A model generated the notes under the pieces. That model had not been told where the DNA came from and did not search any database. It was given only the letters and a program-made list of their open reading frames with translations. Positions 2,244 to 34,116 of a stretch of DNA of 62,161 nucleotides are shown piece after piece. How positions within the stretch are numbered: the first letter of the stretch is position 1; the number at the start of each line of letters is the position of its first letter. The stretch comes from Anaerolineales bacterium. Lineage in GTDB: Bacteria > Chloroflexota > Anaerolineae > Anaerolineales > Villigracilaceae. The position numbers and the translations under genes are program-made. The stretch covers positions 1 through 62,161 of the forward strand of contig JAHDWC010000004.1 in the NCBI GenBank assembly GCA_023382575.1. Direction: 5' to 3'.

Positions 2244-2336
2244 ATGCAAGATAAAAACAAACTGCCCAACCCCTCATTTACCACATGCTCTTTGGAGCGC
2301 ATCGCATCAACTAAACGTTTCCTAACGGAGGAATAA
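2244..2336 (+). CDS. Possible 30-aa leader peptide coupled to dmsA
   Basis: A short ORF (MQDKNKLPNPSFTT... ending TKRFLTEE) has a strong AGGAG site (2232-2236) seven bases before its ATG. Its stop codon TAA (2334-2336) shares its A with the ATG of dmsA (2336), a TAATG arrangement typical of translational coupling. No family is recognised and the peptide has no signal sequence or helix of note. It could be a real small protein, a regulatory leader peptide, or a chance ORF. Moderate support comes only from the ribosome binding site and the overlap. Confidence 0.4.
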   Translation: MQDKNKLPNPSFTTCSLERIASTKRFLTEE

Positions 2337-4747: not shown

Positions 4748-4760
4748 AAGGAGATACATC

Positions 4761-5375
4761 ATGGCTAAACAACTTGGTTTTTATGTAAATCTGGCGAATT
4801 GCACGGGCTGTAAAGCCTGCGAAATTGCCTGCAAAGATCGCAAGGAATTGCCCGTGGGCGTTCGCTGGCGCCGTGTTTACGAATACGGCGGCGGAGAATG
4901 GGTTGCCGATGGCGACCAGATGGTCCCGAGCGGTGTGTTCCACTACTTTGTCTCCACAGCTTGTATGCACTGTGAAAAGCCCATTTGTATGGAAGTCTGT
5001 CCGGCGTCTGCGATCAGCAAACGAGATGACGGGATCGTGGTCATCAACCCGGATCAATGCATTGGCTGTCGCTATTGCTCATGGGCTTGCCCTTACGGCG
5101 CGCCTCAATTCAACGAGGAAGCCAAAGTGATGACCAAGTGCGATTTCTGTGTTGAACTTCAGGCACAGGGACAGAAACCTGCTTGTGTGGATGCCTGTCC
5201 GTACCGCGCGCTGGAATTTGGCGAGATCGAAGAGCTGAAAGCCAAATATGGCACGCTCAATAACCCGGCGCCAATGCCCGACCCGGCGCTGACCGAACCG
5301 TCGATTGTTTACACCCCCCACAAAGATACCCGGACGTCGCAATCGGGCGGTGGGCAGGTTCTGAACATCGACTGA
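4761..5375 (+). CDS. dmsB: DmsB-like four-cluster iron-sulfur subunit
   Basis: Electron-transfer subunit (204 aa) with four ferredoxin-like cysteine blocks: CTGCKACEIAC, CMHCEKPICMEVCP, CIGCRYCSWACP and CDFC...CVDACP. This is the 16-Cys pattern of DmsB-family proteins that wire quinol oxidation in the membrane anchor to the Mo site. I chose the ATG at 4761, preceded by AAAGGAG (4747-4752); the frame extends further upstream but that part overlaps dmsA and is not conserved-looking. It has no signal peptide and is expected to be exported with DmsA. It lies 13 bp after dmsA and 13 bp before dmsC. Confidence 0.94.
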   Translation: MAKQLGFYVNLANCTGCKACEIACKDRKELPVGVRWRRVYEYGGGEWVADGDQMVPSGVFHYFVSTACMHCEKPICMEVCPASAISKRDDGIVVINPDQCIGCRYCSWACPYGAPQFNEEAKVMTKCDFCVELQAQGQKPACVDACPYRALEFGEIEELKAKYGTLNNPAPMPDPALTEPSIVYTPHKDTRTSQSGGGQVLNID

Positions 5376-5388
5376 CAGGAGAAACAAA

Positions 5389-6306
5389 ATGGATACTCGT
5401 GAATGGGCATTGCTCATCTTTACAATCCTCGGACAAGTCGCAGCTGGTTCCCTGTTCGTGCTGATGGTCGTCCGCGCCTATGCGGCCTCGAAAGTTGGCG
5501 TGGAACAGACGGATCGCCTCACCGATGGTCCGCTCTACATTGTTGTGCCGATCATGGGACTGGCGCTGCTCGCATCGCTGTTCCACTTGGGCAACCCGCT
5601 GAACATTGCGAAAGCCGTTCCCAACCTTGGCACATCCTGGCTCAGCCGTGAAGTTGTGCTGGCTGTGACCTTTGTCATCCTCGCTGGTGTGTACACCCTT
5701 TTGCAGTGGCGCAAGATCGGCAACAATACCCTGCGAACCGTCATCGGCTGGATTGCCGTCCTCGCTGGGTTGGCTCAGGTGTACGGTATGGGCATGGTTT
5801 ACATGATCCGCACCCAACCCTCATGGAACACCCTGGCAACCCCGGTCAGCTTCTTTGTGACCACCCTGCTTCTCGGTGTAGCGACCATTGCCGCAGCTCT
5901 AATCGTCAATCACTCCCGCATCAATAAAGGCGACCAGAAAAATGAACAGCAACAGGAGTTGTTGCGAAAATCCTTACAGGGACTCGCGATCTCTTCCATC
6001 GTTCTGCTGGGTATTGAGTTTTTGGTCACGCCGCTTTACATGGCGTACCTGTCTGCACAGGGAACCGAAGCGGTGCAAAGCCTCAACCTGATGGTTGGTG
6101 AATTTGGACTCACCTTTGCTCTGCGACTTATCTTCGTCTTCCTGGGCGCAGGTGTCCTGGCGGCTTACATCTACCGCAACGCCTCCATCCTCGGGAAGGA
6201 AGGCACGCTATCTGTCCTCGTTTACAGTGCCCTGGTCTTGATCCTGGCTGGCGAGGTGATGGGACGCTTCATCTTCTACGCAACCCACGTCCGCATTGGG
6301 TTGTAA
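5389..6306 (+). CDS. dmsC: DmsC-like quinol-oxidising membrane anchor
   Basis: Membrane subunit (305 aa) with eight predicted hydrophobic segments, matching the DmsC family in length and in the N-terminal EWALLIFTILGQVAAGSLF helix. It anchors DmsAB and takes electrons from menaquinol or ubiquinol. A hydrophilic linker near residue 185 (NKGDQKNEQQQ) separates the two halves. The ATG is preceded by CAGGAGA. Its paralogue at the window start has the same C-terminal GRF(L/I)FYATHVR(V/I)GL, indicating duplication of the reductase module. Confidence 0.92.
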   Translation: MDTREWALLIFTILGQVAAGSLFVLMVVRAYAASKVGVEQTDRLTDGPLYIVVPIMGLALLASLFHLGNPLNIAKAVPNLGTSWLSREVVLAVTFVILAGVYTLLQWRKIGNNTLRTVIGWIAVLAGLAQVYGMGMVYMIRTQPSWNTLATPVSFFVTTLLLGVATIAAALIVNHSRINKGDQKNEQQQELLRKSLQGLAISSIVLLGIEFLVTPLYMAYLSAQGTEAVQSLNLMVGEFGLTFALRLIFVFLGAGVLAAYIYRNASILGKEGTLSVLVYSALVLILAGEVMGRFIFYATHVRIGL

Positions 6307-6323
6307 TCTCTAGTAAACCAAAT

Positions 6324-6353
6324 CCATTGAGGGCGGGTATCCGCCCTCAATGG
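6324..6353 (+). promoter_or_regulatory. Perfect 13-bp stem hairpin after dmsC
   Basis: CCATTGAGGGCGG (6324-6336), loop GTAT (6337-6340), CCGCCCTCAATGG (6341-6353). The stem is perfect and GC-rich, but no T-tract follows on either side, so it is not a classical intrinsic terminator. It may stabilise the upstream dmsABC message or reduce read-through to the WD40 gene, which begins 15 bp later. Confidence 0.55.
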
Positions 6354-6368
6354 AACATAAGGTAAATC

Positions 6369-9332
6369 ATGCTCTTAAGAAATGCCAAGCAATTTCTAGT
6401 TCTGGGGGCATTTATTCTTTTTGGCTTGCCATTTACCAGCGTTCCTGCACAATCAAATTCAGACGATCAAGTTAAGGTCATCCAACTCTCACCAAGTGGA
6501 TATGAACAAGGGGTATCGATTGCTTTTTCTCCCGACGGCGGCCAGATTGCTGTCGGCGGGTCTTCGGGGGTGTATCTATTCAATTTCACTTCATTATCAA
6601 GAGAAAGTTTTATTGAAACTGAAAGCTGGGCACGCAGCATAGTCTACGCACCCGATGGACAGAGTCTCTTTGCAGGTCTATTCGATGGCTCTGTTCGACA
6701 GTGGCAATTGTCAAACAAGGAACAGCTTCAGGTTTTTGAAAACCATGTCGGGTGGGTGCGAAGCGTGGTTATCTCGAATTATGGGAATATCCTGGCCACG
6801 GTTGCGGATGATCAGTCCATCCACCTTTGGGATTTGCAAAAGGGCACGCTGAAGTTAACGATCAACGATCTCGCTGGACCTCGAGTCTTGGCGCTTTCAC
6901 CCGATGGAGAAATCCTGGCTGTAGGTTTACAGGATGCTCACATTCTATTGTTGCAAGTTTCAGATGGCAGCATCATCAAAGCATTGAGCGGACATACAGA
7001 CTGGGTACGCAGCCTGGCGTTTTCGCCCGATGGAAAAAAATTAGCATCGGGCGCGTTTGATGCTACGGCTCGCATCTGGGATGTTGAATCCGGGCAAACC
7101 GATTTTGTTCTTTCCGATCATCAATCCAGTGTATTGGGCTTGGATTTTTCGCCAGATGGGACGATGCTGGCTACAGGTTCGGTAGATACCACGGTTAAGC
7201 TTTGGAATGTGTATGATGGTAGTCTGCTGCGCACGTTGATCGGACATGCCGATTTTGTCTACGCTGTCGCTTTCTCGCCTGATGGGCGCAGTCTGGCTTC
7301 CACATCAAGTGACAACACCGCCAGAGTATGGGATTTGGATGCTCCACAACCGGAAAATCTTCATGAGCCCTCGACTCCAAGCGACTGCCGCCTCTGCCAC
7401 CATCCGCGTGGACTTAACGCACCACCGAGGGTGATTCAGATCAGTTGCGAAGCGTGTCATGCCAATGGCATCGGCATGAACTGGTGTCCCTTCTTCCCGC
7501 GTTCATCTCAAGCGGTCTCGCCGATAGCCTCTTCCCCACTACTCGGTCCGGTGGGTGTTCCGGTTGTCGCGGAAAATGTCGCGGTCTACATCAATTACCC
7601 AACCAATGGCGAGACGCTTTACGCCAATGGAAAAAACTTGTCGCCTGCCTTTGTCAAGGGACATGTTTTTTCAAACGGAGAAACAGAGATCGCAGTGCAA
7701 CTTGAGATCTGGTCTGATGAGACATTGGCTGGAACGTTACTCACAAAACCAGATCAAGACGGCAATTTCACATTCAAAATAGCCCTCAACCCAGACGGTT
7801 CATTAATCGTGGCAGGTGCCAAGGCAGCAGATCCCGATTGTTCGAGCTGCCATGAAGATTTTGAAAGTCAGGCTTTCTTCCCAGATGGACAAGTTCATTT
7901 CGTAGTTACAGCCATCACATCCAGCGGAGAAAAAGCTCAGGATGAACGCTGGATCACTGTCGATACAAGTGAAAGCGCTGAATTGGAAGTTTTGGTATTG
8001 GATGAAGAGACCGGCTCCCCCATTCCTCATCTACCAGTTCACGCCTCAACGATCCTGTACGAATGGCGTGACCGGTATTCAAATCAAGTCACTAACATGG
8101 AAGGCATTGCCCAACTTTCATTGGAGGCATTGTCTCAATCTGCAACACAATATGAGATTTCCATCCCACCATCAGCGCTGGGTGGATACTTGTATGAAAG
8201 CGTTGAGCCTGTCCAGTTGGAACTTGCCCCCGGCGTAACAAGCCATGCGCCGATCACGATCCATGTCCACAAAATGAGAGGACAGATCAGCGGCGAAATA
8301 AGCGGCGCGCAGCTTTCAGAACCGCTTGACGTTTGGGCTGTCCACTTGCCGGATGGAACTTTCCAAAAAACATCCATCGAAAATAATGCCTTTGCTTTTG
8401 ACGAATTGCCGAGTGGCAAATATCAGGTATTCATCGACCCGGCGATTGAGCAATTGGGGTATCAAGCCGAAGCGCTTCATATCGACCTGACAAAGAAAGC
8501 ACAAGCTTCGGTTAATCTTAATTTGGTTGAGACGGATCTATCCAGAGTCATTGGAAATGTCCGCGATGAAAATGGAAACTCTTTGCCCTTTGGATGGATC
8601 ACAACCGCTTCAGGTCAGACCGTGGTGCTGAATCCAACCAGTGGAATGTATACCCTCTCCAAACTGGACTCTGCCAAGACGACCTTGACCCTTGATGTTC
8701 CGGGGTACTACAGTCAGGCGCGAGTTGTAGAGAAATCTACTTCCACGCTTGACTTTGACTTGGTGATGCGCCCCGAAACACAGATTCAGGCTTGGGGAAA
8801 TGGCGAGATCATCCTCTCGCCTGAGACGGACTTTGAAGAAAATTCCGCTGGCATCACACTAAATAGCGGCTGGATTTGGGGACAAAACGAAACAGCAGAT
8901 GCCCTCCTCTTGCAGGTTGCGGACATCCAAATCAAGTTGATGCGTGGCACATTTGCAGTGGAATACTCTCCTTCGCAAGGCGGCTGGATCTACGTTTCCG
9001 ACGGCGAAGCGATCCTTCAAACCAATGATGGGCAGGAAGTTTCAGTCGCCAACGGACAGATGGCGGCTTTATCCGAACAGTTTGCTCCAATCGCAGTTCC
9101 ATTCGAAGAAGCGGTGTTTCTCAATTTGAATTCGCAAGTTGAGTCTGCGCTGCCCCACCAATGGGAACCGTCCCTTGAGGCGCAAATCCGCGACCGATTG
9201 GCGCGTATTGGCATCAATATTGCCCAATTTGTTACATTTGTTACCTATAGCTTGGTACTGATTGTTATTGCGACATTCTCGATCCGGGCAATATACTCAA
9301 CTTGGAAACGTGTAAAGACGACAAATCATTAA
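6369..9332 (+). CDS. Exported WD40 propeller / triheme / FecR-like fusion protein
   Basis: A 987-aa protein of unusual architecture. A signal peptide (about 1-28, ending near VPAQS) is followed by seven WD40 repeats (about residues 40-335) with recurrent AFSPDG and (R/K)(I/V)WD motifs, enough for a closed propeller. Three c-type heme motifs follow: CRLCH near 340, CEACH near 360 and CSSCH near 490. Next come beta-rich carboxypeptidase-regulatory-like repeats (about 500-810), a FecR-like segment (about 830-905) with GWIYVSDGEAILQTNDG, and one C-terminal membrane helix (about 953-975) with a short basic tail. It should sit outside the membrane, tethered at its C-terminus. Its place between dmsC and the chaperone suggests a redox or docking partner of the reductase. 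No named family covers the whole protein. Confidence 0.85.
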   Translation: MLLRNAKQFLVLGAFILFGLPFTSVPAQSNSDDQVKVIQLSPSGYEQGVSIAFSPDGGQIAVGGSSGVYLFNFTSLSRESFIETESWARSIVYAPDGQSLFAGLFDGSVRQWQLSNKEQLQVFENHVGWVRSVVISNYGNILATVADDQSIHLWDLQKGTLKLTINDLAGPRVLALSPDGEILAVGLQDAHILLLQVSDGSIIKALSGHTDWVRSLAFSPDGKKLASGAFDATARIWDVESGQTDFVLSDHQSSVLGLDFSPDGTMLATGSVDTTVKLWNVYDGSLLRTLIGHADFVYAVAFSPDGRSLASTSSDNTARVWDLDAPQPENLHEPSTPSDCRLCHHPRGLNAPPRVIQISCEACHANGIGMNWCPFFPRSSQAVSPIASSPLLGPVGVPVVAENVAVYINYPTNGETLYANGKNLSPAFVKGHVFSNGETEIAVQLEIWSDETLAGTLLTKPDQDGNFTFKIALNPDGSLIVAGAKAADPDCSSCHEDFESQAFFPDGQVHFVVTAITSSGEKAQDERWITVDTSESAELEVLVLDEETGSPIPHLPVHASTILYEWRDRYSNQVTNMEGIAQLSLEALSQSATQYEISIPPSALGGYLYESVEPVQLELAPGVTSHAPITIHVHKMRGQISGEISGAQLSEPLDVWAVHLPDGTFQKTSIENNAFAFDELPSGKYQVFIDPAIEQLGYQAEALHIDLTKKAQASVNLNLVETDLSRVIGNVRDENGNSLPFGWITTASGQTVVLNPTSGMYTLSKLDSAKTTLTLDVPGYYSQARVVEKSTSTLDFDLVMRPETQIQAWGNGEIILSPETDFEENSAGITLNSGWIWGQNETADALLLQVADIQIKLMRGTFAVEYSPSQGGWIYVSDGEAILQTNDGQEVSVANGQMAALSEQFAPIAVPFEEAVFLNLNSQVESALPHQWEPSLEAQIRDRLARIGINIAQFVTFVTYSLVLIVIATFSIRAIYSTWKRVKTTNH

Positions 9333-9347
9333 AATTTTGGAGATCAG

Positions 9348-10052
9348 ATGAAAAACGAAGCAATTCTCAATAATGACATGTCCCAAACATTGGTGGGTGA
9401 AATTTTATTACTGAGATTATTGGGCAAAGCACTTTACAACGAACCTGACCGCAAATGGCTTGAAGAACTCATTGCTCAACAGATCTTTTCCGAGATTCCA
9501 TTTGGCGACGAACAGCCTGAAATCATCCGCGGATTTGAACTTCTGCAAGGATGGAGTCAGGTAAACGCTAATGGATTATCCGAGGCAGATTTCGCCGAAC
9601 TAAAAATGGATTTCACCCGCCTCTTCATTGGATTGGATGTCCATCACACCGCACCCTGGGACTCGGTTTACTTCAACCGCGAACGCCTTGTGTTCCAAGA
9701 ACAAACCATCCAGGTCCGCGAATGGTATGCGCGTTTCGGTCTGCAATCGGAAAATTTTGGTAAAGAACCCGATGACCATATCGGGCTGGAAATGTTGTTC
9801 ATCGCACATCTGGCTTCGCTGGCACTGCAAGCCATCGAGCAAAATGACGAGACCAAACTGAACGAAATCCTGCAAGCTCAACAGGACTTTCTCTCAGAAC
9901 ATCTTTTGCGCTGGGGTCCCGTCTGGGCGAAACTCGTCAAGCAGCATGCCGCCACCGATTTTTATCGCGGCATCGCGCACCTGACACATGGCGCCTTGCT
10001 CGCCATTGCTGAATTGCTTGAGATCAAAATGCCGAAAGAGGTTACGCTGTGA
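9348..10052 (+). CDS. TorD/DmsD-type molybdoenzyme chaperone
   Basis: A 234-aa all-helical protein of the TorD family, which binds the twin-arginine signal of its partner and holds it until cofactor insertion is done. Family features include the PWDSVYFNRERLVFQ segment, the YARFG turn and the conserved EPDDHIGLEMLFIAHL motif. It is cytoplasmic, with no signal or helix anchor. The ATG follows GGAGATCAG. Its stop overlaps the GTG of the next gene by four bases, so it is translated with the polyferredoxin. The obvious client is the DmsA encoded in the same operon. Confidence 0.92.
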   Translation: MKNEAILNNDMSQTLVGEILLLRLLGKALYNEPDRKWLEELIAQQIFSEIPFGDEQPEIIRGFELLQGWSQVNANGLSEADFAELKMDFTRLFIGLDVHHTAPWDSVYFNRERLVFQEQTIQVREWYARFGLQSENFGKEPDDHIGLEMLFIAHLASLALQAIEQNDETKLNEILQAQQDFLSEHLLRWGPVWAKLVKQHAATDFYRGIAHLTHGALLAIAELLEIKMPKEVTL

Positions 10053-11224
10053 GTTTGCTGAACGCCGCCGAACGGTTCGCTTCCATTGACCGTTCGCAAA
10101 TCACTTTGGATCCGAAACGCTGCCTGCATGTGCAGGATCAGCATTCGGATTGTGCGGCGTGTTTCGAGATCTGCCCGGTTCAAGCCATCACAGTCAGCAA
10201 GCCGCCCATGCTCGATGCAGAAAAATGCGAGTCATGCCTTGCCTGCCTGCCCGTTTGTCCCGTTGGCGCTTTTCACGCAGACGACGATGTAGCGGACCTG
10301 CTCACCTGCGCCACGCACATCGAAGACCAGCCAGTTGAACTATTATGCGGCTTGCATCCTCATCCCGAGAACGGAATCAACGCTGAAGCGGTTGGGATTC
10401 AAATTCATGGATGTCTGGCAGGCTTGGGGACTGGCGCATTGCTGGCTCTCTCTGCATTGGGAGTCAAGCGCCTCATCCTCCGCGCTGACAGTTGCTCTGT
10501 CTGCAAGTGGCATTCGCTTCACTCGGAGATTCACCAGCAGGTTGAGCGAGCCGCGCGCTTTTTATCCGCATGGGACGACGACATCCTTATCACCTGTGTG
10601 GATGAAATCGAATCACCTGTAGAACGTCCGCTGTGGGGAGCGAAGAACCCGCCGCTCTCGCGTCGTGATCTGTTTCGCATGATGGCTAAGCAGGGACAAG
10701 TCGCCTTGGCGCGCGCGATGGAAAACGGCGTGTCTGCTTCCAAACGCCAGCCGGGGCGCGACCGCCTGCGATTGCTCTCCGCAGTTTCGCATTTATCGGA
10801 TGCATCTTCCACCACAGACCTGCATGAATTCGGTTTTGCCACGCTGACAATTTCAGAGTCTTGCACGGCTTGTAGCGCATGTGGACGAGCCTGTCCCACT
10901 GAGGCGCTGCGTTTCGAAAAGAACGATGAAGCCCTGACGTATACCCTCACCTTCTCGGCTCAGAACTGCATCGGCTGTGATGTGTGTGAGCATGTCTGCC
11001 TGCCAGATGCGATCACATTGAACCACGAACCGACTTTTGAAGAAGTGTTCGGCGTGAAAGAAGCGCAGGTTGTTGAATCAGGTTCATTAGTCCGGTGCGA
11101 GCGCTGTAAATCGTTAATGGCGGCGCGCGATGGCGTGAAGTTATGTCCGCTATGTGAGTATCGGCGCACACATCCGTTTGGTTCGATGCTGCCAAAGAAA
11201 ATCTTAAAGGAATCCCGCCCATGA
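10049..11224 (+). CDS. Polyferredoxin with C-terminal zinc-ribbon-like end
   Basis: A 391-aa cytoplasmic-looking iron-sulfur protein. Two ferredoxin blocks lie near the N-terminus (CAACFEICPVQAI, CESCLACLPVCPVGAF) and two more near residues 270-330 (CTACSACGRACPTEAL, CIGCDVCEHVCLPDAI). The middle contains an isolated CSVCKWH. The C-terminus has CERC...CPLC, which looks like a zinc or rubredoxin-type knuckle. The start is GTG at 10049 in a GTGA overlap with the chaperone. It overlaps the radical SAM gene by ATGA. No exact family name is recognised. It may feed electrons to the radical SAM enzyme or to reductase maturation; that is inferred from coupling only. Confidence 0.82.
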   Translation: MSLLNAAERFASIDRSQITLDPKRCLHVQDQHSDCAACFEICPVQAITVSKPPMLDAEKCESCLACLPVCPVGAFHADDDVADLLTCATHIEDQPVELLCGLHPHPENGINAEAVGIQIHGCLAGLGTGALLALSALGVKRLILRADSCSVCKWHSLHSEIHQQVERAARFLSAWDDDILITCVDEIESPVERPLWGAKNPPLSRRDLFRMMAKQGQVALARAMENGVSASKRQPGRDRLRLLSAVSHLSDASSTTDLHEFGFATLTISESCTACSACGRACPTEALRFEKNDEALTYTLTFSAQNCIGCDVCEHVCLPDAITLNHEPTFEEVFGVKEAQVVESGSLVRCERCKSLMAARDGVKLCPLCEYRRTHPFGSMLPKKILKESRP

Positions 11225-12546
11225 TCGCTGATGTGACCCAATCCACTTTACCCGAGATCAAAAACCATGCTCTGCGCGAGTATGCCAATATGTACGTGCG
11301 GATCTATCAAGATTTCATGGAGCAGGTGAAGCGGATGGGGCTTGAAGTGGAAAGTGAAGATACCACCGCGTTGGTTGTAGAGAAGGTCGAAGCCTTGCGA
11401 AAAAAAGGCGCAATCGTCCGCAACAGTGACAAGAGCATTTACACCAATTGCATCTCCCCATCGTGTGTTGCCTGTCAGACAGGCACGAATAGCACGACGT
11501 TTTTCATCTCATTGAAATGCCATCGCGATTGTTTTTACTGCTTCAATCCCAACCAGGAAAATTACGAATACTTCCGCGAGCATACCCGTGACGTGATACA
11601 GGAGTTGGATGAAGCCCGCGCGTCCAAAGCGGCACTGGGACATATTGCATTGACCGGTGGCGAGCCGCTCCTTCATAAAGAAGAAACCTATCGCTTCTTT
11701 GAACATGCGAATGAGATGTATCCCAATTCGCATACACGGCTTTATACCAGTGGCGATCACATTGACCGCGCCACATTGGAAGAATTGCAAAAGTCTGGCC
11801 TGAAGGAAATCCGCTTCAGCATTCGGATGCATGACCTGGCAAAAGGACAGATGCATACCTACGACCGCATCGCCCTCGCGCGGGAATACATTCCCAATGT
11901 GATGGTGGAGATGCCCGTCCTGCCGAACACGTTGGAAGAAATGAAAGATGTGTTGATGCGGCTTGAAGAACTCGGCATTTTTGGCATCAACCTGCTGGAA
12001 TTTTGCTTCCCGTTGAACAACGTCGAAGCCTATCGTGAGAAGGGCTACAAGGTTAAGGCGCGACCGTTCCGCGTGCTGTACGATTACTGGTACGCAGGCG
12101 GACTTCCCATTGCGGGCAGTGAGCTGGTGTGCCTGGACTTACTCGATTTTGCGCTCGAAAAAGGATTAAAACTCGGCGTGCATTATTGCTCTTTGGAAAA
12201 CAAGCACACGGGTCAGCTTTACAAACAAAATAGCGGACATCGCCTGCCAGCCCGCATCCATTTTTCGCAACGGGATTATTTCCTGAAAACCGCCAAGGTC
12301 TTCGGTGAGGATATCCCTGCTGTGAAGCAAACGTTCGACAAGGCTGGCTATCGCGAGTATGTCCTCAGTGAAGAACAAAACAGCCTGGAGTTCCACGTCA
12401 ACAAAATTAGCAGCTTAAAAAAGCTCAATGTGGATGTGGGAATTGCCAGTCATGTGATCGAGGCGCGCGGAAATGAGCAAGTTCTACGCGAACTCAAAGT
12501 GGATGTCACCACTCCACAGATATTCCGTCTATCAAAAGATATATAA
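11221..12546 (+). CDS. Radical SAM protein in the reductase operon
   Basis: A 441-aa radical SAM enzyme. The canonical CX3CX2C cluster motif is CHRDCFYC near residue 100, followed by FNPNQ. The glycine-rich SAM-binding strand is ALTGGEPLLHKEET. An extra cysteine group upstream (CISPSCVACQTG, near residue 80) could bind a further cluster or metal. It starts with ATG in an ATGA overlap with the polyferredoxin and is followed by tatA after 12 bp. It resembles the AdoMet core of MoaA/PqqE-like enzymes but has no C-terminal SPASM block that I can see. Its substrate is unknown; a maturation role for the Mo enzyme or a heme protein is plausible but unproven. Confidence 0.85.
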   Translation: MIADVTQSTLPEIKNHALREYANMYVRIYQDFMEQVKRMGLEVESEDTTALVVEKVEALRKKGAIVRNSDKSIYTNCISPSCVACQTGTNSTTFFISLKCHRDCFYCFNPNQENYEYFREHTRDVIQELDEARASKAALGHIALTGGEPLLHKEETYRFFEHANEMYPNSHTRLYTSGDHIDRATLEELQKSGLKEIRFSIRMHDLAKGQMHTYDRIALAREYIPNVMVEMPVLPNTLEEMKDVLMRLEELGIFGINLLEFCFPLNNVEAYREKGYKVKARPFRVLYDYWYAGGLPIAGSELVCLDLLDFALEKGLKLGVHYCSLENKHTGQLYKQNSGHRLPARIHFSQRDYFLKTAKVFGEDIPAVKQTFDKAGYREYVLSEEQNSLEFHVNKISSLKKLNVDVGIASHVIEARGNEQVLRELKVDVTTPQIFRLSKDI

Positions 12547-12740: not shown

Positions 12741-13535
12741 GTGACTGCAAATATGACCGCTGTGAAAAAGGACAAACGCAAATGGCGCGATGTATTTCGT
12801 GCATTTGGGCGCGCCCATAAAAAAGCCAGCGTTCAAATGGAAAGCTCCGCGCCGCTGCTTAGTCATCTCAACGAACTGCGGATGCGGGTCTTCAAAGCCT
12901 TCCTCGCGTTGATAATCGCCACGGGAATTAGCTTTGCATTTTCCGAGCAGGTTATTAACTATCTCGCCATGCCCATCGGCGGGACGTCCAATCTCGTCTC
13001 GATTGAATTGACCGAGAACATCGCCATCTTCATGAAGGTCTCTCTGCTGGGCGGCTTCGTGCTTGCCATGCCGGTCATCGTCTACCAGATCATGGCGTTC
13101 ATCCTGCCGGGTTTGAAGCGCAATGAACGCGGCTGGCTGCTTGTGATGGTTCCGTTCGCCACTCTGCTCTTTGCGGGCGGTGTCGCGTTCACCTGGTTTG
13201 TGATGTTGCCCACGGCCATCCCCTTCCTGACTGGCTTTATGGGCATCACCACGCAGGTACGCCCGGAAAATTATTTTGAATTCGTCACCCGCATCATGTT
13301 CTGGATCGGCGTGTGTTTCGAAATGCCGCTGGTCGTCATGTTTTTGGCGAAGTTGAAATTTGTCACAGCGAAACAACTCGCGAGCGGATGGCGCTACGCA
13401 ACCGTGCTCATGGCAGTCGTCGCCGCATCGGTCACCCCGACAGTGGACCCGGTCAACATGGGCTTGGTCATGGCGCCACTGATGGGACTCTATGTTGTCA
13501 GCATCATTTTAGCCGCCATCGTCGGCAGAGGTTGA
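12741..13535 (+). CDS. tatC: TatC translocase subunit
   Basis: A 264-aa receptor subunit of the Tat translocase, with six membrane helices. It contains the family hallmark LLSHLNELRMRVFKA just before the first helix and the EMPLVVMFL segment near residue 200. The first 30 residues are basic and extend beyond typical TatC. GTG at 12741 is chosen because AAAGG lies about 11 bases upstream; ATG at 12753 is the alternative. The stop codon is followed one base later by the ATG of tatB. Confidence 0.94.
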   Translation: MTANMTAVKKDKRKWRDVFRAFGRAHKKASVQMESSAPLLSHLNELRMRVFKAFLALIIATGISFAFSEQVINYLAMPIGGTSNLVSIELTENIAIFMKVSLLGGFVLAMPVIVYQIMAFILPGLKRNERGWLLVMVPFATLLFAGGVAFTWFVMLPTAIPFLTGFMGITTQVRPENYFEFVTRIMFWIGVCFEMPLVVMFLAKLKFVTAKQLASGWRYATVLMAVVAASVTPTVDPVNMGLVMAPLMGLYVVSIILAAIVGRG

Positions 13536-13536
13536 T

Positions 13537-13752
13537 ATGGATATTTTCGGAATCGGCGGCAACGAACTGATCGTCATCATCTTGCTGGCGGCCATCATCC
13601 TCGGACCCGAACGCCTGGCGCGTTCGGCGCGGGAGATCGGCAAGTTCGTCAAGAACGTGAAAGCCTATTTTTCGTCCCTTTCCACTGAATTACGCGCGGA
13701 ATTGGACGTACTCGACGAAATGGAAAAGGTCAAAAAGGACATTTTGAAATAA
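13537..13752 (+). CDS. tatB: TatB-like translocase subunit
   Basis: A 71-aa Tat protein. The N-terminus NELIVIILLAAIILGPERL has the G-P-E/R motif typical of TatB at the helix break, followed by an amphipathic helix (ARSAREIGKFVKNVKAYF) and a charged coil ending in EKVKKDILK. It is more TatB-like than the TatA at 12559, and together with TatC completes a three-component set. It is short for TatB, which often exceeds 100 residues. Confidence 0.87.
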   Translation: MDIFGIGGNELIVIILLAAIILGPERLARSAREIGKFVKNVKAYFSSLSTELRAELDVLDEMEKVKKDILK

Positions 13753-13757
13753 ATTCC

Positions 13758-13775
13758 CTCACCCAAGTGGGTGAG
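13758..13775 (+). terminator. Hairpin directly after tatB
   Basis: CTCACCC (13758-13764), loop AAGT, GGGTGAG (13769-13775) begins six bases after the tatB stop. There is no T-run downstream (ACGGAAAATG follows), so it may act as a weak or Rho-aided terminator, or as an mRNA 3' end, for the long reductase operon. Confidence 0.45.
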
Positions 13776-13870
13776 ACGGAAAATGCTCCGGAATGATGAT
13801 GTAAAAAATCGCTTCTGCCGTTATCATAAAAACAGACGAAATCTAGTCTTATAAAAAACCACTCCGATCC

Positions 13871-13977
13871 CTTTTGCCTAAAACGAATGTCACGGCAAAG
13901 TGGACGGTTCCCGCAAGGGGACAAGGGTCTTCCCGGAAACAGGCAGACCTCCCGAAATCCCAAACGCAAATGGGATT
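13871..13977 (+). promoter_or_regulatory. Structured leader RNA candidate before the ECF operon
   Basis: Four helices can be drawn between tatB and the NTPase gene. CTTTTGCC 13871-13878 pairs with GGCAAAG 13894-13900. GTTCCC 13907-13912 pairs with GGGGAC 13917-13922 around a GCAA (GNRA) tetraloop. GGGTCT 13925-13930 pairs with AGACCT 13945-13950. AATCCCA 13956-13962 pairs with TGGGATT 13971-13977. The last helix ends nine bases before the AAAAGGAG site and could serve as expression platform. The GNRA loop, the purine-rich internal bases (CCCGGAAACAGG) and the CCTCCCG segment, with a downstream FmdE gene and molybdopterin-like lipoprotein gene, make a Moco-type riboswitch a reasonable suspicion. 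I cannot match it to the family consensus with confidence. Confidence 0.45.
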
Positions 13978-14000
13978 GAATTGAAAAGGAGCCATAGGCT

Positions 14001-14555
14001 GTGCAACTTTCTAAAAACTCGCCTGGCGCTCTGCTGGCGAGTTTAATTTCCCCCAATCAGAATAAACCCAAACTGCTGTTGGTCACAGGTCCGCGCGGGT
14101 CTGGCAAGACTCTCTGGTGCATGGACCTGGTCGGTCGCGCTCACGCACGCGGACTTAATCTCGGCGGCTTGATCTCTCCCTCCATTTTTTTGAATGACAG
14201 GAAGATCGGCATCGGTCTCAAGGACCTACATAGCGGCGAACAACATCGCCTCGCCTATCGCAAAGGCGACGAAGACGGCGACATCCAAACCCAGGATTGG
14301 CAAATGGTGGCGGAAACGCTGGAATGGGGAAACTCCGTCCTTGAACAGGTCAAAACCTGCGATCTTTTTATCCTTGATGAAGTTGGACCCTTTGAACTCG
14401 AACATGGCATCGGTCTCGTAGCAGGGTTGGACATCATCGCTAATGCAAAAGATTTTCCCTGCGTAGTGGTGATCCGTCCATCGCTGATGGAGAAGGCACT
14501 CGCCCGCTGGCATTGGGCAGACATGCTCGATCTCGCCTCGGAGTCGAACCGATGA
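14001..14555 (+). CDS. THEP1-type nucleoside-triphosphatase
   Basis: A 184-aa P-loop NTPase of the NTPase_1/THEP1 family. Walker A is GPRGSGKT (about residues 30-37), Walker B is LFILDEVGPFEL (about 128-139), and the GGLISPS motif follows helix 1 as in the family. The GTG start at 14001 follows AAAAGGAG. Its stop overlaps the ATG of the ABC ATPase gene. Such NTPases are often found beside molybdenum, tungsten or ECF-type uptake genes; its exact role is unknown. It has no membrane segment and is cytoplasmic. Confidence 0.85.
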   Translation: MQLSKNSPGALLASLISPNQNKPKLLLVTGPRGSGKTLWCMDLVGRAHARGLNLGGLISPSIFLNDRKIGIGLKDLHSGEQHRLAYRKGDEDGDIQTQDWQMVAETLEWGNSVLEQVKTCDLFILDEVGPFELEHGIGLVAGLDIIANAKDFPCVVVIRPSLMEKALARWHWADMLDLASESNR

Positions 14556-16036
14556 TTCATGTCCGCGATTTGAGCGTCTCCTACGGGACAAATCCAGTTT
14601 TGCAAAACATCAATGTGCATGTAAATGCAGGCGAATGTCTCGTCGTCACAGGCAGTTCTGGCTGTGGAAAATCCACGCTGGCGCATGTGCTCACGGGACT
14701 CATCCCCCACTCGATCCCCGCTCACGTCACAGGATCCGCTCAAATTGCAGGGATGGATGCGCTTTGCTCCTCTGTGGATACACTCTCGCAAAAAGTTGGC
14801 ATCGTCTTTCAAAATCCGCGTACGCATCTTTTCCATTTACGAGTTGAAGATGAAGTTGCCTTCGGTCCGCGCAACCTTGGCATGGACGAAGCCGAAGCGA
14901 GCGCCCGCGTTGATTGGGCATTGAATGCTGTCGGGTTGACAGAGATGCGAGAGCAAAAGCCAGCCAACCTCTCCGGCGGACAAATTCAAAGGCTTGCCAT
15001 TGCCGCCGCGCTTGCGATGAATCCCAAAGTACTCGTGCTCGATGAACCCACTGCCTCGCTGGATGTGCCCGGCACACAAAATGTCATCGGCACATTGGAG
15101 ACGTTGAAAAAACAATATGGCTTGACCATCGTGCTGATCGAGCATCGTCTTGCCGAAGTGCGTCGACTGGCAGATCACGTCCTTGTGTTGGATGAAGGTC
15201 GCATCGCAGCGCAGGGACAATTTGACGAGGTACTGCGAGATCCTTCCACGCTGAAACGATATGGCTTGCGCCGCCCCACTGCCGAAACACTCACCGACTG
15301 GTCACGCCTGCTTGCGCCCAATGGGCATCATCCCGAAGATCAACAGCCTTTGCTTGATCTGCAAAATCTTACCGCAGGCTATGACGGTCATCCCATCATT
15401 CGAGACATCGACCTGAAAATTTATGCAGGCGAATTTGTCGCACTTGTCGGCGATAATGGCACGGGCAAATCCACGTTGGCGCTGGCGGCGGCTGGTTTGC
15501 TCAAACCCATCGCTGGCAGTGTCATCGTCAATGGCACCTCCCGTCCGCGCCCCGGCTTGGACATTGCCCTGCTCTTTCAAAACCCGGCTGACCAACTCTT
15601 CACTGACTCGGTGGATGAGGAAGTTGCCTTTGGTCCGCGCAACTATCGCAGTTTTGATTCCGAAATTCATGAGCACGCCCTCACCAGCGCCGACCTGCAT
15701 CATTTGCGCGCGCGCCGACCGTTCACGCTCTCCATCGGTCAGCAGCAGCGTACAGCGCTCGCCGCCTGCATTGCGCTTCGCCCTGCGCTCGTCATCCTCG
15801 ATGAACCCACGCTCGGACAGGATTGGCGCCACCTACAGCAGTTGATGGATTGCCTCGTGCGTTTGAACCAGCAAGGGACTGCCATCCTGCTCATCACGCA
15901 CGATTACAAACTCGTCCATCACTATGCCAAACGAGTGATCTTGATGGAAAAAGGCCGCCTCAGTCTTGACGGGAAGATTGCCCCCACTGCGGGAAGCAGA
16001 ATCCACACGGAAGGATTTGTCCATGCCGCATCCTGA
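14552..16036 (+). CDS. Fused double ATPase of an ECF transporter (EcfA-EcfA')
   Basis: A 494-aa protein with two ABC ATPase domains, equivalent to the EcfA1/EcfA2 pair of energy-coupling-factor transporters. Domain 1 (about 1-230) has Walker A GSSGCGKST, signature LSGGQIQR and Walker B VLVLDEPTA. Domain 2 (about 265-485) has GDNGTGKST, a degenerate signature LSIGQQQR and LVILDEPTLG. Both Q-loops sit in FQNPxxxLF, as is typical for Ecf/Cbi ATPases. The ATG at 14552 overlaps the NTPase stop by ATGA; an upstream TTG in frame is less likely. EcfT is encoded at 17694 and an S component at 16630. Confidence 0.92.
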   Translation: MIHVRDLSVSYGTNPVLQNINVHVNAGECLVVTGSSGCGKSTLAHVLTGLIPHSIPAHVTGSAQIAGMDALCSSVDTLSQKVGIVFQNPRTHLFHLRVEDEVAFGPRNLGMDEAEASARVDWALNAVGLTEMREQKPANLSGGQIQRLAIAAALAMNPKVLVLDEPTASLDVPGTQNVIGTLETLKKQYGLTIVLIEHRLAEVRRLADHVLVLDEGRIAAQGQFDEVLRDPSTLKRYGLRRPTAETLTDWSRLLAPNGHHPEDQQPLLDLQNLTAGYDGHPIIRDIDLKIYAGEFVALVGDNGTGKSTLALAAAGLLKPIAGSVIVNGTSRPRPGLDIALLFQNPADQLFTDSVDEEVAFGPRNYRSFDSEIHEHALTSADLHHLRARRPFTLSIGQQQRTALAACIALRPALVILDEPTLGQDWRHLQQLMDCLVRLNQQGTAILLITHDYKLVHHYAKRVILMEKGRLSLDGKIAPTAGSRIHTEGFVHAAS

Positions 16037-16622
16037 TGCCTTGGTCTGGGATGACCGCTATTCCAACGATCTTCGCTGGCGGGAAGTCCGTCCGCCGCGT
16101 AGTTTGTTGACCACGCATCAGAGTCTCCTTCCGCGCAATGGTTTGGCGCTCGATGCCGCCTGCGGAACCACTCCAACCGGCTTGCATCTCGCCCGTCAGG
16201 GATGGCAGGTCATCGCTTTGGATGTGTCCAACACTGCCTTGCGTCTGGCACAGTCTCAGGTCCAGAAAGAAGCGCTGACGGTTTCTTTTGCGCAAATGGA
16301 TCTGGCAAATCCGTGGCTGCCTACGAATCAATTCGATGTCATCCTCAATTTTTATTACTTGTCGCGCCCGCTTCTTTCCACGTATCGACAATCCATGAAA
16401 CGCGGCGGATTATTATTCTTTGAGACATTCGTGCGTGACGAATTCATTCAAAGCACAACAGACGGCAACCCGGAACATTATCTGGAGCCGCATGAATTGA
16501 AAAACGAATTTGAAGATTGGCACATCATTCATTACGAAGAAACGCAGCGGATCTCGCGTGCAACAGAACGCCGCAATAGATCACGGCGTATTGCGCGGCT
16601 GGTAGCTCGCAAACCGGAATAG
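16023..16622 (+). CDS. Class I SAM-dependent methyltransferase
   Basis: A 199-aa protein with a Rossmann-type methyltransferase core: ALDAACGTTPTGLHLA (motif I, SAM binding), VIALDVSNTAL (acidic residue for the ribose), and FDVILNFYYLSRPL (motif IV region). It looks like the TehB/UbiE-like group of small-molecule methyltransferases. The ATG at 16023 lies inside the 3' end of the ABC ATPase gene (14-bp overlap). Its place within an uptake operon suggests modification of the imported compound, but no substrate can be named. Confidence 0.85.
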   Translation: MPHPDALVWDDRYSNDLRWREVRPPRSLLTTHQSLLPRNGLALDAACGTTPTGLHLARQGWQVIALDVSNTALRLAQSQVQKEALTVSFAQMDLANPWLPTNQFDVILNFYYLSRPLLSTYRQSMKRGGLLFFETFVRDEFIQSTTDGNPEHYLEPHELKNEFEDWHIIHYEETQRISRATERRNRSRRIARLVARKPE

Positions 16623-16629
16623 AGGAAAC

Positions 16630-17235
16630 ATGAAATTTACAACCCGTGAACTTGTGACGATGGCGGTCTTTGGCGCGTTGTGGGGATTGGTGGAGATTTC
16701 ACTCGGCGCGGTCTTCCACGCCATCGACCTGCCCATGACCGGCATGACGCTGGCGATTATCGGCGTGATGGTGGCTTGCATCGGACGATTGTTCGTGTCC
16801 AAACGCGGCTCGACTATTTTCATCGGGATCATTGCGATGGTGTTGAAGTTATTCAGCATCGGCAGCGCGGTCATTGGACCAATGGTGGGCATCCTTGCCG
16901 AGGCATTGATTGCCGAGCTGGTCTTGAGCGCATTCATGAAACCGTCCCTGCTTGTGTTCATCGTCGCCAGCGCGGGCGCATCCCTGTGGACGTTGGTACA
17001 GCCATTCGTGACCGGCGTGTTGTTATTTGGACGCAACCTGTTGATGATCTGGCTCGACTTGCTCGATACTGGCACGCGCCTCTTTGGAATCCCCTATCAA
17101 GCCGCAGTGTGGATCGTCATTGTATTGGTCAGCGTACATATACTGGCAGGCGGGATTGGCGGTTGGCTGGCTTGGAAATTAGGTCAGGTTTTGAAAACTC
17201 GATTGGGCGGGGACGTCCCTCACCCAGTCAGATAA
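16630..17235 (+). CDS. ECF transporter S component (substrate unknown)
   Basis: A 201-aa membrane protein with about five to six hydrophobic segments. It begins FTTRELVTMAVFGALWGLVEI, the usual start of S components (basic residues, then the T-R-E-L-V helix with small-residue spacing for docking to EcfT). It carries no signal peptide. Genes for the ATPases and EcfT are in the same operon. It does not look like BioY, ThiT, RibU, CbiM or other S components I recognise by motif. The operon neighbours (molybdopterin-like lipoprotein, FmdE) point toward a molybdenum- or pterin-related substrate, as inference. Confidence 0.8.
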   Translation: MKFTTRELVTMAVFGALWGLVEISLGAVFHAIDLPMTGMTLAIIGVMVACIGRLFVSKRGSTIFIGIIAMVLKLFSIGSAVIGPMVGILAEALIAELVLSAFMKPSLLVFIVASAGASLWTLVQPFVTGVLLFGRNLLMIWLDLLDTGTRLFGIPYQAAVWIVIVLVSVHILAGGIGGWLAWKLGQVLKTRLGGDVPHPVR

Positions 17236-17253
17236 CTTTTAGGAGAACTACAA

Positions 17254-17694
17254 ATGAAACGTTTTTTGCTCGTTACCTTTATTTTGGCGCTGACTCTCAC
17301 AGCATGCGCTTCGCAGTCTCAGGAATCCGCTGGACCCGTCTTGAAAGTTTCAGATGGAAATGTCGAAAAGACTTACACCGTTGATGACCTTAAATCCCTC
17401 GGCGAATCGCAAGCCGACTTCAAAGGTGTGACCTATGTCGGCGTGTCGTTGACCGTTCTGCTCGCGGATGCTGGCATCGATGCGGCTGCGTTGACTGCTA
17501 TCAAGGCGGTTGCATCTGATGGTTTCACTGCCAACTATGAATCCACGCTGTATAGCCGAGAAGATACGCTGGTCGCCTATGCTACTGTGGATGGTCCACT
17601 CAGCGAAGAAGATGGCTTCTTCCGCATGGTGCTGCCAAACGAAGAAGGCAAATTGAATCCGCGTCAATTGGTCGAGATCATCGCGATCCCATAA
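17254..17694 (+). CDS. Lipoprotein with molybdopterin-oxidoreductase-like domain
   Basis: A 146-aa lipoprotein. The signal peptide ends in the lipobox LTAC (C19). The mature part resembles the C-terminal half of sulfite-oxidase-type molybdopterin-binding domains: FKGVTYVGVSLTVLLADAG, then AVASDGFTANY, then a conserved-looking VDGPLSEEDGFFRMVLPNE and a terminal beta strand. It is far shorter than the catalytic enzymes and lacks the Mo-ligating cysteine region. It may therefore be a binding protein rather than an enzyme. ATG follows TAGGAGAAC, and the stop shares its A with the ATG of ecfT (TAATG). A role presenting a ligand to the ECF transporter is inference. Confidence 0.72.
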   Translation: MKRFLLVTFILALTLTACASQSQESAGPVLKVSDGNVEKTYTVDDLKSLGESQADFKGVTYVGVSLTVLLADAGIDAAALTAIKAVASDGFTANYESTLYSREDTLVAYATVDGPLSEEDGFFRMVLPNEEGKLNPRQLVEIIAIP

Positions 17695-18431
17695 TGTTGA
17701 AACACGCCCAACCCATCACCATGTCAGTAAACTCGCCCAGACCGCTCGTAGGGAGTCTGGGACATTTCAGCATCTTTCTGTGGGCATTAGTGATGGTCTT
17801 GATCCCAACCTACACGAAGGGAATTATTCTGGCGCTCTTCACTCTGGGTGTGTTGATCCTGCTCTACCCCGCCGCAGTGAAGCGGCTGGCGCGTCCGCGT
17901 TGGCTGGTGATCTTCGGGGTCTTATTTCTCGTCAATCTTTTCTTCGGCGTTTCAGACCAAGCGCCTGATTTGACCATTCTGGGTTTGTCGTTTTCATCAC
18001 TGAACATTCTCAACAGCATTCAAATGACCCTGCGAGCCGCCGTCATTTTGCTTGCCGCCGATGGTCTCTCCAGTTCGGTCAACATCGTGGAAGTGGCAGG
18101 TCTGCTCGAACGCAGCGGTTTGCGCGGACTAGGTTTTTCCATCGGCGTAGCGACCAATCTATTGCCCGACCTGCGTCAATCTGGCATGAACGCCTGGCAT
18201 AGTCTACGCATGCGCGGCGGGTTTCGCGCTCAATGGTGGCGCGGACTGCAATTGCTGGTCGTCACTGTTTTTTCCAACGCGCTTCGTCATGCCGAACAAA
18301 TTGTCCTCGCCGCGGAAGTCCGCGCCTTTCGCCCCGAACTCAGCCGCAAATCTCCACTGCGCATCGGCACGCTGGATGGCTGGCTGGCGGCGGGATTGAC
18401 CATCCTTGCCGTTGTTTTGACTCTTGGATAG
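17694..18431 (+). CDS. ecfT: ECF transporter transmembrane subunit EcfT
   Basis: A 245-aa integral membrane scaffold of an ECF transporter (CbiQ/EcfT family), with about five membrane helices in the first half. The cytoplasmic coupling helices are visible in LRMRGGFRAQWWRGL and AAEVRAFRPELSR, which carry the family's short A-x-R-x-G/F signatures that dock on the ATPases. Translation is coupled to the preceding lipoprotein by a TAATG overlap. With the double ATPase and the S component it makes a complete transporter. Confidence 0.87.
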   Translation: MLKHAQPITMSVNSPRPLVGSLGHFSIFLWALVMVLIPTYTKGIILALFTLGVLILLYPAAVKRLARPRWLVIFGVLFLVNLFFGVSDQAPDLTILGLSFSSLNILNSIQMTLRAAVILLAADGLSSSVNIVEVAGLLERSGLRGLGFSIGVATNLLPDLRQSGMNAWHSLRMRGGFRAQWWRGLQLLVVTVFSNALRHAEQIVLAAEVRAFRPELSRKSPLRIGTLDGWLAAGLTILAVVLTLG

Positions 18432-18440
18432 GAGCACGAA

Positions 18441-19052
18441 ATGAAAGATATAACTGCCTTGCTGGAAAAATCCGCCCGTGACCATAGCCATTTATGTCCA
18501 CGCCAGATCTTGGGCGTGCGCATCGGACTCAAGGGAATGGAATCTCTGCAACTGGAAGCGAATCAAAACTCGAAGCGCCTGCTCGTCATCACCGAGACGG
18601 ATGGCTGTTTCGCCGATGGACTCTCCGCCGCAACGAACTGCACGGTTGGTCATCGTACGTTGCGCGTGGAAGATTACGGCAAAGCCGCCGCCACCTTTGT
18701 AGACACGCAAACCGGCAAAGCCGTCCGTGTGGCGCCCGCATTGGATATCCGCGAGCAAGCGTGTGCCTTCGTCCCAGATGAAGCGCGGCACTACTTCGCG
18801 CAGATGCAAGCCTATCAAACCATGCCCGATGAAACCATGCTGACCGTGCAGGAAGTCTTACTGAAAACCTCCATCCAACAGATTGTTTCTCGTCCCGGCG
18901 TGCGTGTCAACTGTGACGTGTGCGGCGAGGAGATCATGAATGAGCGCGAGATCCATCAACATGGATTAACGCTTTGTCGCTCTTGTGCCGGTGATGGTTA
19001 TTATCAGTCCTGCATTGAGATCCCCATTCAAACGCAAATCCTTGCTGAGTAA
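18441..19052 (+). CDS. FmdE-family protein with C-terminal zinc ribbon
   Basis: A 203-aa protein of the FmdE family, named from the formylmethanofuran dehydrogenase operon of methanogens and found with molybdenum genes in bacteria. The N-terminal metal-binding signature is DHSHLCPRQILGVRIGL; a second cysteine cluster is in TDGCFADGLSAATNCTVGHR. A C-terminal Cys-rich knuckle (CDVCGEEI...CRSCAGDGYYQSC) is a zinc-ribbon-like end seen in many members. The ATG follows TAGGAGCACGAA. It is the last gene of the operon and is followed by a strong terminator. Its biochemical function is not established in the family. Confidence 0.87.
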   Translation: MKDITALLEKSARDHSHLCPRQILGVRIGLKGMESLQLEANQNSKRLLVITETDGCFADGLSAATNCTVGHRTLRVEDYGKAAATFVDTQTGKAVRVAPALDIREQACAFVPDEARHYFAQMQAYQTMPDETMLTVQEVLLKTSIQQIVSRPGVRVNCDVCGEEIMNEREIHQHGLTLCRSCAGDGYYQSCIEIPIQTQILAE

Positions 19053-19055
19053 ACA

Positions 19056-19084
19056 AAAGGACAGGTCGTGAGACCTGTCCCTTT
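19056..19084. terminator. Bidirectional intrinsic terminator
   Basis: GGACAGGTC (19059-19067), loop GTGA, GACCTGTCC (19072-19080), flanked by AAAA on the left and CTTTCATTATTT on the right. It separates the converging fmdE-like gene (+) and ABC permease gene (-), and offers a T-rich tail in both directions. Confidence 0.85.
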
Positions 19085-19086
19085 CA

Positions 19087-25003: not shown

Positions 25004-25462
25004 ATGTTACTCAAAGGTGACGTCATAATTCAGGCACCACGGAAGAAAGTCTGGGACTTCCTGACCGACCCCAACCAAATCGGTCAGTGCGTTCCCGGGG
25101 TCGAAAAAATCGAAACCATCGAAGAAATGAAGCGATATCACGGCGTGGTATCGGTTGGGCTTGGCTCGGTCAAAGCCCGTTTTAGCGGGGAAGTTGAAAT
25201 CCTGGAATTGGACGAACCCAATCGCGCAAAACTAAAAGCCCATGGCACCGCCACCGGCAGCGCCGCAGACGCTGTCAGCGAAATGCACCTGAGCGACGGA
25301 CCCGACGGCTCCACCCTCGTACATTGGACAGCAGATGTTAACGTCTCCGGGCAGCTCACCAGCCTTGTCTCCCGCCTCATGGTTCCGGTCTCGCAAAAAC
25401 TCGCCAGCGTATTCTACGACGAAGTACGAAAAAGGATCGAAACCGTCAGCGCGCAAGCCTGA
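25004..25462 (+). CDS. coxG: CoxG-like SRPBCC-fold accessory protein
   Basis: A 152-aa protein of the CoxG / carbon monoxide dehydrogenase subunit G family (START-like SRPBCC fold). It has the typical opening GDVIIQAPRKKVWDFLTDPNQIGQCVPGVE, and the AKLKAHGTATGSAADAV and WTADVNVSGQLTSLVSRLM strands. In Oligotropha CoxG helps recruit the Mo-hydroxylase to the membrane; here the C-terminal anchor extension is absent. It is the first gene of the Mo-hydroxylase operon, five bp before xdhC. Confidence in the family is high, its role here less so. Confidence 0.88.
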   Translation: MLLKGDVIIQAPRKKVWDFLTDPNQIGQCVPGVEKIETIEEMKRYHGVVSVGLGSVKARFSGEVEILELDEPNRAKLKAHGTATGSAADAVSEMHLSDGPDGSTLVHWTADVNVSGQLTSLVSRLMVPVSQKLASVFYDEVRKRIETVSAQA

Positions 25463-25467
25463 AAATC

Positions 25468-26532: not shown

Positions 26533-26563
26533 CGTAGTCTTCACAATGTCATAAGGAAAATTC

Positions 26564-27442
26564 ATGAAACCTGCCCCTTTTAAATATCATGCCCCCCATT
26601 TGCTCGAAGAAGCCTTGAGTTTGATGAATCAACATGCGGATGAAGCCAAGCTGCTTGCGGGCGGACAAAGCCTTGTGCCTGCGATGAATTTCCGTGTGGT
26701 GCAGCCAAGCCTGTTGATCGACTTGAATCACGTGCAGGAAATGGCTTACATCAGTGAAGATAAAAATGCGCTTCATATTGGGGCGATGGCGCGCGAACGA
26801 CAGTTGGAATTTAATGCGTCCATCGAAACACGGACTCCACTTTTGCATGAAGCCGTGCCGTTCATCGCGCATCCGCAGATTCGCAATCGCGGCACGATTG
26901 GCGGGAGCATTGTCAACGCAGACCCGGCGGCGGAATTGCCAGTGTTGATGCTGGCATTGGATGCACGCTTGAAAGCGCAGAGCATTTCGGGGGAACGTTG
27001 GATCAACGCCAAGGATTTTTTCGCGGGCATGTTCACCACTGCGCTTGAGCCGAATGAAATTTTGGTGGAGATTGAATTGCCGTTTATGTCAGCACATACG
27101 GGTTGGTCGTTTATGGAAGTTGCGCCACGTGCAGGCGACTATGCCTTGATGGGCGTCGCTGCCTTGGTCACATTGGATGAAAACGGAAAATGCACACATG
27201 CAAAATTAGTGTATTTGAATGCGGGCGATGGTCCCGTGGATGCGAAGGATGCCGCGAAAAGTTTGGAAGGTGAAACCTTAAGTGACGCCTTGATGGAATC
27301 CGCGGCGGCGATGGCAAGCGAAAAAGAAATCAATCCTTTTGGCAATGTCCACACCTCGCCGGAGTTTCAACGTCACCTTGCAAAGGTATTGACGAAAAAA
27401 GCATTGAAGCAAGCCATCCAACGCGCGGGAGGAGCGCAATGA
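26564..27442 (+). CDS. coxM: Mo-hydroxylase FAD-binding subunit (CoxM-like)
   Basis: A 292-aa FAD subunit of a xanthine-dehydrogenase-family enzyme. It has the two FAD pyrophosphate-binding motifs LLAGGQSLVPAMNFR and NRGTIGGSIVNADPAAELP, and the C-terminal CO-dehydrogenase flavoprotein domain. It passes electrons from the FeS subunit to the acceptor. The gene overlaps the 2Fe-2S subunit gene by ATGA at 27439, in the order M-S, with the large subunit displaced to 34117. Confidence 0.93.
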   Translation: MKPAPFKYHAPHLLEEALSLMNQHADEAKLLAGGQSLVPAMNFRVVQPSLLIDLNHVQEMAYISEDKNALHIGAMARERQLEFNASIETRTPLLHEAVPFIAHPQIRNRGTIGGSIVNADPAAELPVLMLALDARLKAQSISGERWINAKDFFAGMFTTALEPNEILVEIELPFMSAHTGWSFMEVAPRAGDYALMGVAALVTLDENGKCTHAKLVYLNAGDGPVDAKDAAKSLEGETLSDALMESAAAMASEKEINPFGNVHTSPEFQRHLAKVLTKKALKQAIQRAGGAQ

Positions 27443-27909: not shown

Positions 27910-27914
27910 GACGT

Positions 27915-32114: not shown

Positions 32115-32124
32115 AGGAGAAACC

Positions 32125-32907: not shown

Positions 32908-32915
32908 TTGCGATT

Positions 32916-32970: not shown

Positions 32971-32984
32971 AAATTGAGGTTTGA

Positions 32985-34103: not shown

Positions 34104-34116
34104 CGGAGATTAATTC

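Follow-up and report, generated by a model that had tools for sequence, protein, structure and literature searches.

The substrates known for ECF transporters are vitamins, nickel and cobalt, mostly cofactors, and some of these systems carry extra extracytoplasmic subunits of the CbiN or NikN type. We know of no ECF transporter for an oxyanion and of none that imports molybdenum or a molybdopterin compound, and no accessory exported subunit of the SUOX-lipoprotein type is known to us in this class. The Moco and Tuco riboswitches were described as one family, in which the P3 stem tracks the use of Mo rather than W (PMC2408646). In the current study two kinds of ECF operon are distinguished, the window-type operon (System I) and a separate operon whose S component is fused to SUOX-like domains (System II). 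Neither was found described in the literature searched, and the same searches, with supplementary tables and most subscription journals lying outside them, yielded no ECF transporter under a Moco riboswitch and no Moco uptake system.

The ECF operon and its Moco riboswitch

The window (the whole stretch of DNA analysed, 62,161 nucleotides of an Anaerolineales genome, G000) carries seven genes on the forward strand that run in one direction (14001-19052), with overlaps or short gaps between them. The first encodes a THEP1-like P-loop NTPase (14001..14555, GTG start; PF03266, 6.2e-15), followed by a double ECF ATPase (EcfAA', YkoD-like; 14552..16036) with two ABC domains within a single chain, which matched TIGR04521 (387.8 bits) and TIGR04520 (384.7 bits), both above cut-off. 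The ATPase start can be placed at the ATG at 14552, which overlaps the stop of the NTPase gene, without resort to the listed TTG (14513). Next come a SAM-dependent methyltransferase (about 16023..16622; PF13649, 6e-13), whose gene is missing at several related loci, the S component (16630..17235), a lipoprotein (17254..17694), EcfT (CbiQ-like, 17694..18431; PF02361, 4.8e-10, above cut-off) and an FmdE-family protein with a C4 zinc finger/zinc ribbon (18441..19052; PF02663, 1.3e-29, 103.4 bits against a cut-off of 22.9; PF01258, 6.3e-6), the last being the sole FmdE gene detected in the genome. The gene content and order given in an earlier sequence-only note were borne out by Pfam and NCBIfam scans, which gave no ModA or ModB homologue for any gene of the operon and no CbiM/NikM match among the window genes. 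As 40-86% protein identity is kept in Anaerolineae, the block is no chance grouping.

Upstream on the same strand lie a Tat-exported DMSO-reductase-family operon (2336..12546; catalytic, FeS, DmsC anchor, WD40, NarJ/TorD chaperone, ferredoxin and radical SAM genes), TatC (12741..13535; PF00902, 9e-60) and a small ORF that appeared TatA-like by eye (13537..13752). The reductase genes are found in the same order in G025, a single-contig genome of the window's genus. Downstream, a single long ORF (19087-21834) matches PF00528 twice, as a fusion of two binding-protein-dependent permease domains, and a molybdenum-hydroxylase cluster (25004-36453; CoxG, XdhC, FAD, 2Fe-2S and MoCoBD subunits) is interspersed with amidase, AllG and cyclase genes, a mixture that points to breakdown of purines/allantoin or of oxamate.

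The mRNA of the ECF operon is headed by a Moco riboswitch aptamer (RF01055; 13850..14007, forward strand; 59.9 bits, gathering cut-off 36), which the earlier note had overlooked. The covariance-model alignment was full-length (model positions 1-135), and this was the sole Moco riboswitch detected in the genome. The P3 stem is present, its position holding GUUCCCGCAAGGGGAC. When the sequence was read against the Rfam structure line, the probable ribosome-binding site of the NTPase, AAGGAG (13986..13991, forward strand), was found to contribute its GGAG to the 3' strand of stem P1, with the partner CUCC at 13862-13865. Since this strand holds AAGGAG, ligand binding is expected to mask the ribosome-binding site, and control by Moco through the leader is predicted from these features. 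At low Moco the site would be free and the operon translated; at high Moco the aptamer, stabilised by its ligand, would lock the site in P1.

The S component matched no family above cut-off, its sole Pfam match being a weak one to PF09819/YkoE (E=0.011). A sequence search of the PDB gave nothing useful, and the informative matches came from the fold search alone. The best match of its AlphaFold model (pLDDT 89.6) was YkoE (5edl, Z 16.9), and the 13 best matches were all ECF S components or ECF complexes. The thiamine contacts of YkoE are Y46, W49, E77 and Q95 (PMC5037267). In 42 homologues of the S component these were substituted by A/S/T/G, G45, K73 and E91, respectively, according to a sequence alignment at low identity in which D131 was not reliably alignable. 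K73 and E91 form an invariant pocket pair, whose chemistry would suit an anion as well as the face of a pterin. With a YkoE thiamine fold and binding residues that are not kept, the S component lies outside any clear known family, as had been supposed by eye.

The lipoprotein had been said to resemble part of a molybdopterin-binding domain, and this was upheld: its PF00174 match (5e-7) begins at profile position 56 of this sulfite-oxidase-type domain, and its model (pLDDT 84.9) has the SUOX fold. Sulfite oxidase was matched at Z 16.6, and PruR proteins, which bind pterins, were the best small-protein matches (Z 15.6 at most), so that sulfite oxidase Moco domains and PruR proteins together spanned Z 14-16.6. 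No cysteine is conserved in the mature part of the alignment, i.e. the Mo-ligating cysteine is absent together with its segment. Given the fold resemblance to PruR, the lipoprotein may bind a pterin. The pairing of a lipoprotein with an ECF transporter had been called unusual; an accessory exported subunit as such has precedents in the CbiN/NikN type, and what stands is the singularity, to our knowledge, of its SUOX type.

Molybdenum-linked neighbours and a proposed molybdate supply

A scan of species genomes gave 17 relatives of the S component, nearly all from Anaerolineae (Chloroflexota), and within this class the S component was present in 29 of 238 genomes; two further matches (E 2e-4) were excluded and proved to be System II. 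The Moco riboswitch was found upstream in 13/13 related loci whose contigs extend far enough, as well as at the ECF loci of G025, G220, G059, G057, G115, G066, G015 and G191, and riboswitch-linked ECF copies occurred in several further families.

In G066 (L072) the riboswitch is followed by moeA-mobB-mobA-ATPase-S-lipoprotein-EcfT and in G220 by NTPase-ATPase-S-lipoprotein-EcfT-mobB-mobA, and at L063 mobB-mobA stand after the ECF genes; at L077 an xdhC gene is inserted among them. The DMSO-reductase-family operon is located upstream of the ECF genes in the window, G025, G220 and G115, and its chaperone and ferredoxin genes in G066. The equivalent slot is occupied by TorD-riboswitch-modA-modB-mobB in G127 and by reductase-riboswitch-fmdE-modA-modB in G045. 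Both states exist in a single genus, riboswitch-modAB without ECF genes in G127 and riboswitch-ECF without ModA in G191. The riboswitch and the gene neighbours strongly support a link to molybdenum/Moco, which the operon very probably serves in some form.

In several genomes, among them G055 (the window's genus) and G080 and G203 (the window's family), FmdE is the first gene after the riboswitch, mostly with moaA next; it looks like a general molybdenum/Moco accessory in the class. Loci with the riboswitch ahead of FmdE, mostly then MoaA, were L196, L202, L205, L193, L211, L173, L176 and L178; at L140 and L229 FmdE is followed by ModA-ModB. At L143 and L155 (G036, G123) the riboswitch precedes a THEP1-like NTPase, with a TupB-type permease about 3 kb further on, so tungstate transporters may be further partners of the NTPase.

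The preferred reading, to which we assign a probability of about 0.5, is that the ECF operon supplies molybdate for Moco assembly in place of ModABC. Three observations favour molybdate over molybdopterin/Moco uptake: these genomes retain pterin synthesis, most of them lack ModA, and the ECF genes occupy a genomic slot that is held by modAB in relatives. Of the 238 genomes, 3 of the 29 that hold the S component had a ModA match above cut-off, compared with 115/209 of the rest (Fisher p=4.6e-6). Because incomplete genomes and related species enter these counts, the comparison by family (5/17 versus 22/34 families, p=0.036) gives the fairer picture. The anticorrelation lies mostly between families, and families in which both states occur showed no signal, so it may partly reflect phylogeny.

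The riboswitch subtype is also shared, since P3 occurs at every modA site inspected and at almost every System I site; it was absent from most wtpA and System II sites, and present at some tupB-linked ones, so that the split is not clean for the tupB family. These calls were made from cmscan alignments and reading of the printed segments, a regular-expression classifier having been dropped because it mis-anchored some sites. Tandem Moco riboswitches were seen in L102, L105, L213 and L125; in L102, ahead of wtpA, one has P3 and one lacks it, possibly sensing both Mo and W cofactors.

Loss of moa genes, whose co-occurrence with the operon the earlier note had proposed as a check, was rejected as a driver of System I: MoaC was found in 26/29 genomes with the S component versus 177/209 without it (no association across the 238 genomes), and in 23/23 System I genomes without detected System II. 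The three MoaC-less System I genomes carry System II. Of the uptake proposed there, the molybdenum link held up and salvage did not.

Some features speak against molybdate. The K73/E91 pair is not an obvious oxyanion site, and the modelled fold of the lipoprotein is of the Moco/pterin-binding rather than the molybdate-binding-protein type. No Moco riboswitch was detected in a separate clade of 17 S homologues, in which three loci have an extra gene between ATPase and S component (with xdhC in L077) and three others a PadR-like regulator upstream (by eye). Moreover, the window's genome encodes ModA-ModB (L029 4114-5759, G000:C106; no modC beside them), a WtpA and a TupB-type permease, so molybdate uptake by the ECF operon would be redundant here and this genome is not the cleanest example of System I; in G025 no ModA or WtpA was detected. 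A separate molybdate/tungstate route, regarded in advance as damaging to the proposal, is present here, but class-wide the ECF operon and ModA are mostly exclusive.

The operon has the build of a group I ECF transporter like YkoEDC, with a double ATPase, EcfT and one dedicated S component. If molybdate is the substrate, the lipoprotein would capture it outside and the S component would move it across the membrane, presumably inwards; proteins of the MoeA/MobAB/FmdE type would then draw on it to equip bis-MGD enzymes, e.g. the adjacent Tat-exported reductase.

Possible molybdopterin uptake, System II and other candidate substrates

Instead of molybdate, a molybdopterin-type compound (Moco, molybdopterin or a breakdown product) may be captured by the lipoprotein and carried in by the S component, adding to what the cell makes itself. 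This is rather unlikely, and stays a live rival on account of the PruR-like lipoprotein and the relationship to System II. It is in line with the resemblance of the lipoprotein to sulfite oxidase Moco domains and PruR, with the prevalence of cofactors among ECF substrates, and with the presence of moeA, mobB and mobA, which are steps after molybdopterin. The gene that goes missing is, however, ModA and not Moa, as the 23 MoaC-bearing genomes illustrate, and the lipoprotein gene is missing from several System I loci. The site of PruR was also described as too small for Moco (PMC13259868).

System II, a second ECF operon under a Moco riboswitch, was reached via six moaC-less genomes. Its S component (PF09819, 7.6e-19) is itself fused to SUOX-like domains, and the other genes encode a double ATPase, EcfT, a CxxCH protein, SUOX-like lipoproteins and, in most operons, a phosphodiesterase/nucleotide-pyrophosphatase lipoprotein (PF01663). 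The loci include L129 3534-10191 (G212), L094, L093, L125, L126 and L128. Cobalamin riboswitches lie just past two of the operons (L094 13712-13849, L129 3314-3452).

In a census of the genes following each riboswitch, and hence of riboswitch-linked copies only, System II was found in 14 genomes. MoaC was absent in 10/14 of these versus 25/224 others (p=9e-7), a test that is not fully independent, as the hypothesis arose from six of the same genomes; the ten MoaC-less genomes are spread over six families. MoaA was also absent in the six genomes tested, 5/6 of which still encode molybdenum hydroxylases. System II, which unlike System I accompanies MoaC loss, fits cofactor salvage better and may be regarded as a candidate for it; its pyrophosphatase could trim a dinucleotide cofactor, which would suit salvage. 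No System II was detected in other moaC-less genomes with hydroxylases: G221, G144, G035, G038, G064 and others have molybdenum hydroxylases (PF02738), with no MoaA, MoaC, System I or System II detected, one of them being a single contig.

Import of tungstate instead of molybdate is improbable: the Moco and Tuco riboswitches are one family and tungstate and molybdate importers are close relatives, but the leader carries the P3 hairpin of the Mo-linked subtype (PMC2408646), and TupB- or WtpA-type transporters, common in genomes with and without the S component, are already held by most System I genomes. Despite its YkoE-like S fold and double-ATPase architecture, the operon is very unlikely to be a conventional vitamin transporter, for thiamine/HMP (YkoEDC) or otherwise, placed near Mo genes by chance; thiamine/HMP transport was rejected because of the replaced pocket residues and the occurrence of Moco riboswitches, and no TPP riboswitch, at the loci scanned (window and related ECF loci).

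Comparison with known systems

If true, an ECF transporter for molybdenum, as oxyanion or cofactor, would extend the substrates of these transporters to a new class; the presence of the riboswitch makes the molybdenum prediction easy to test. System II, found mostly in moaC-less genomes with hydroxylases in most of those tested, would make direct bacterial Moco uptake testable. Should the doubtful case hold that System I, as its relative System II may do, takes up intact molybdopterin or Moco, with the SUOX-fold lipoprotein as capture protein, there would be a dedicated entry path for a cofactor generally regarded as made solely within the cell.

The window operon is like YkoEDC (thiamine/HMP, group I) in its double ATPase, EcfT, single dedicated S component and S fold, and differs in the replaced thiamine contacts, the Moco instead of TPP riboswitch, and the added lipoprotein, NTPase and FmdE. 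With CbiMNQO/NikMNQO it would share the role of an ECF importer serving a metal need, some of which have small accessory subunits, although its substrate would be an anion or cofactor and not a divalent cation. Like PruR, the lipoprotein is small and exported and has a SUOX fold that lacks the Mo-ligating cysteine (PMC13259868), but it belongs to a transporter operon, whereas PruR adjoins DcpA, and the pterin-contact Trp of PruR is apparently not conserved in it (by eye). Unlike ModABC, the window system has an ECF architecture, with no sequence relation and no ModA-type binding protein; the modAB genes of relatives nevertheless share with it the riboswitch subtype and the neighbours (TorD/reductase, FmdE, MobB).
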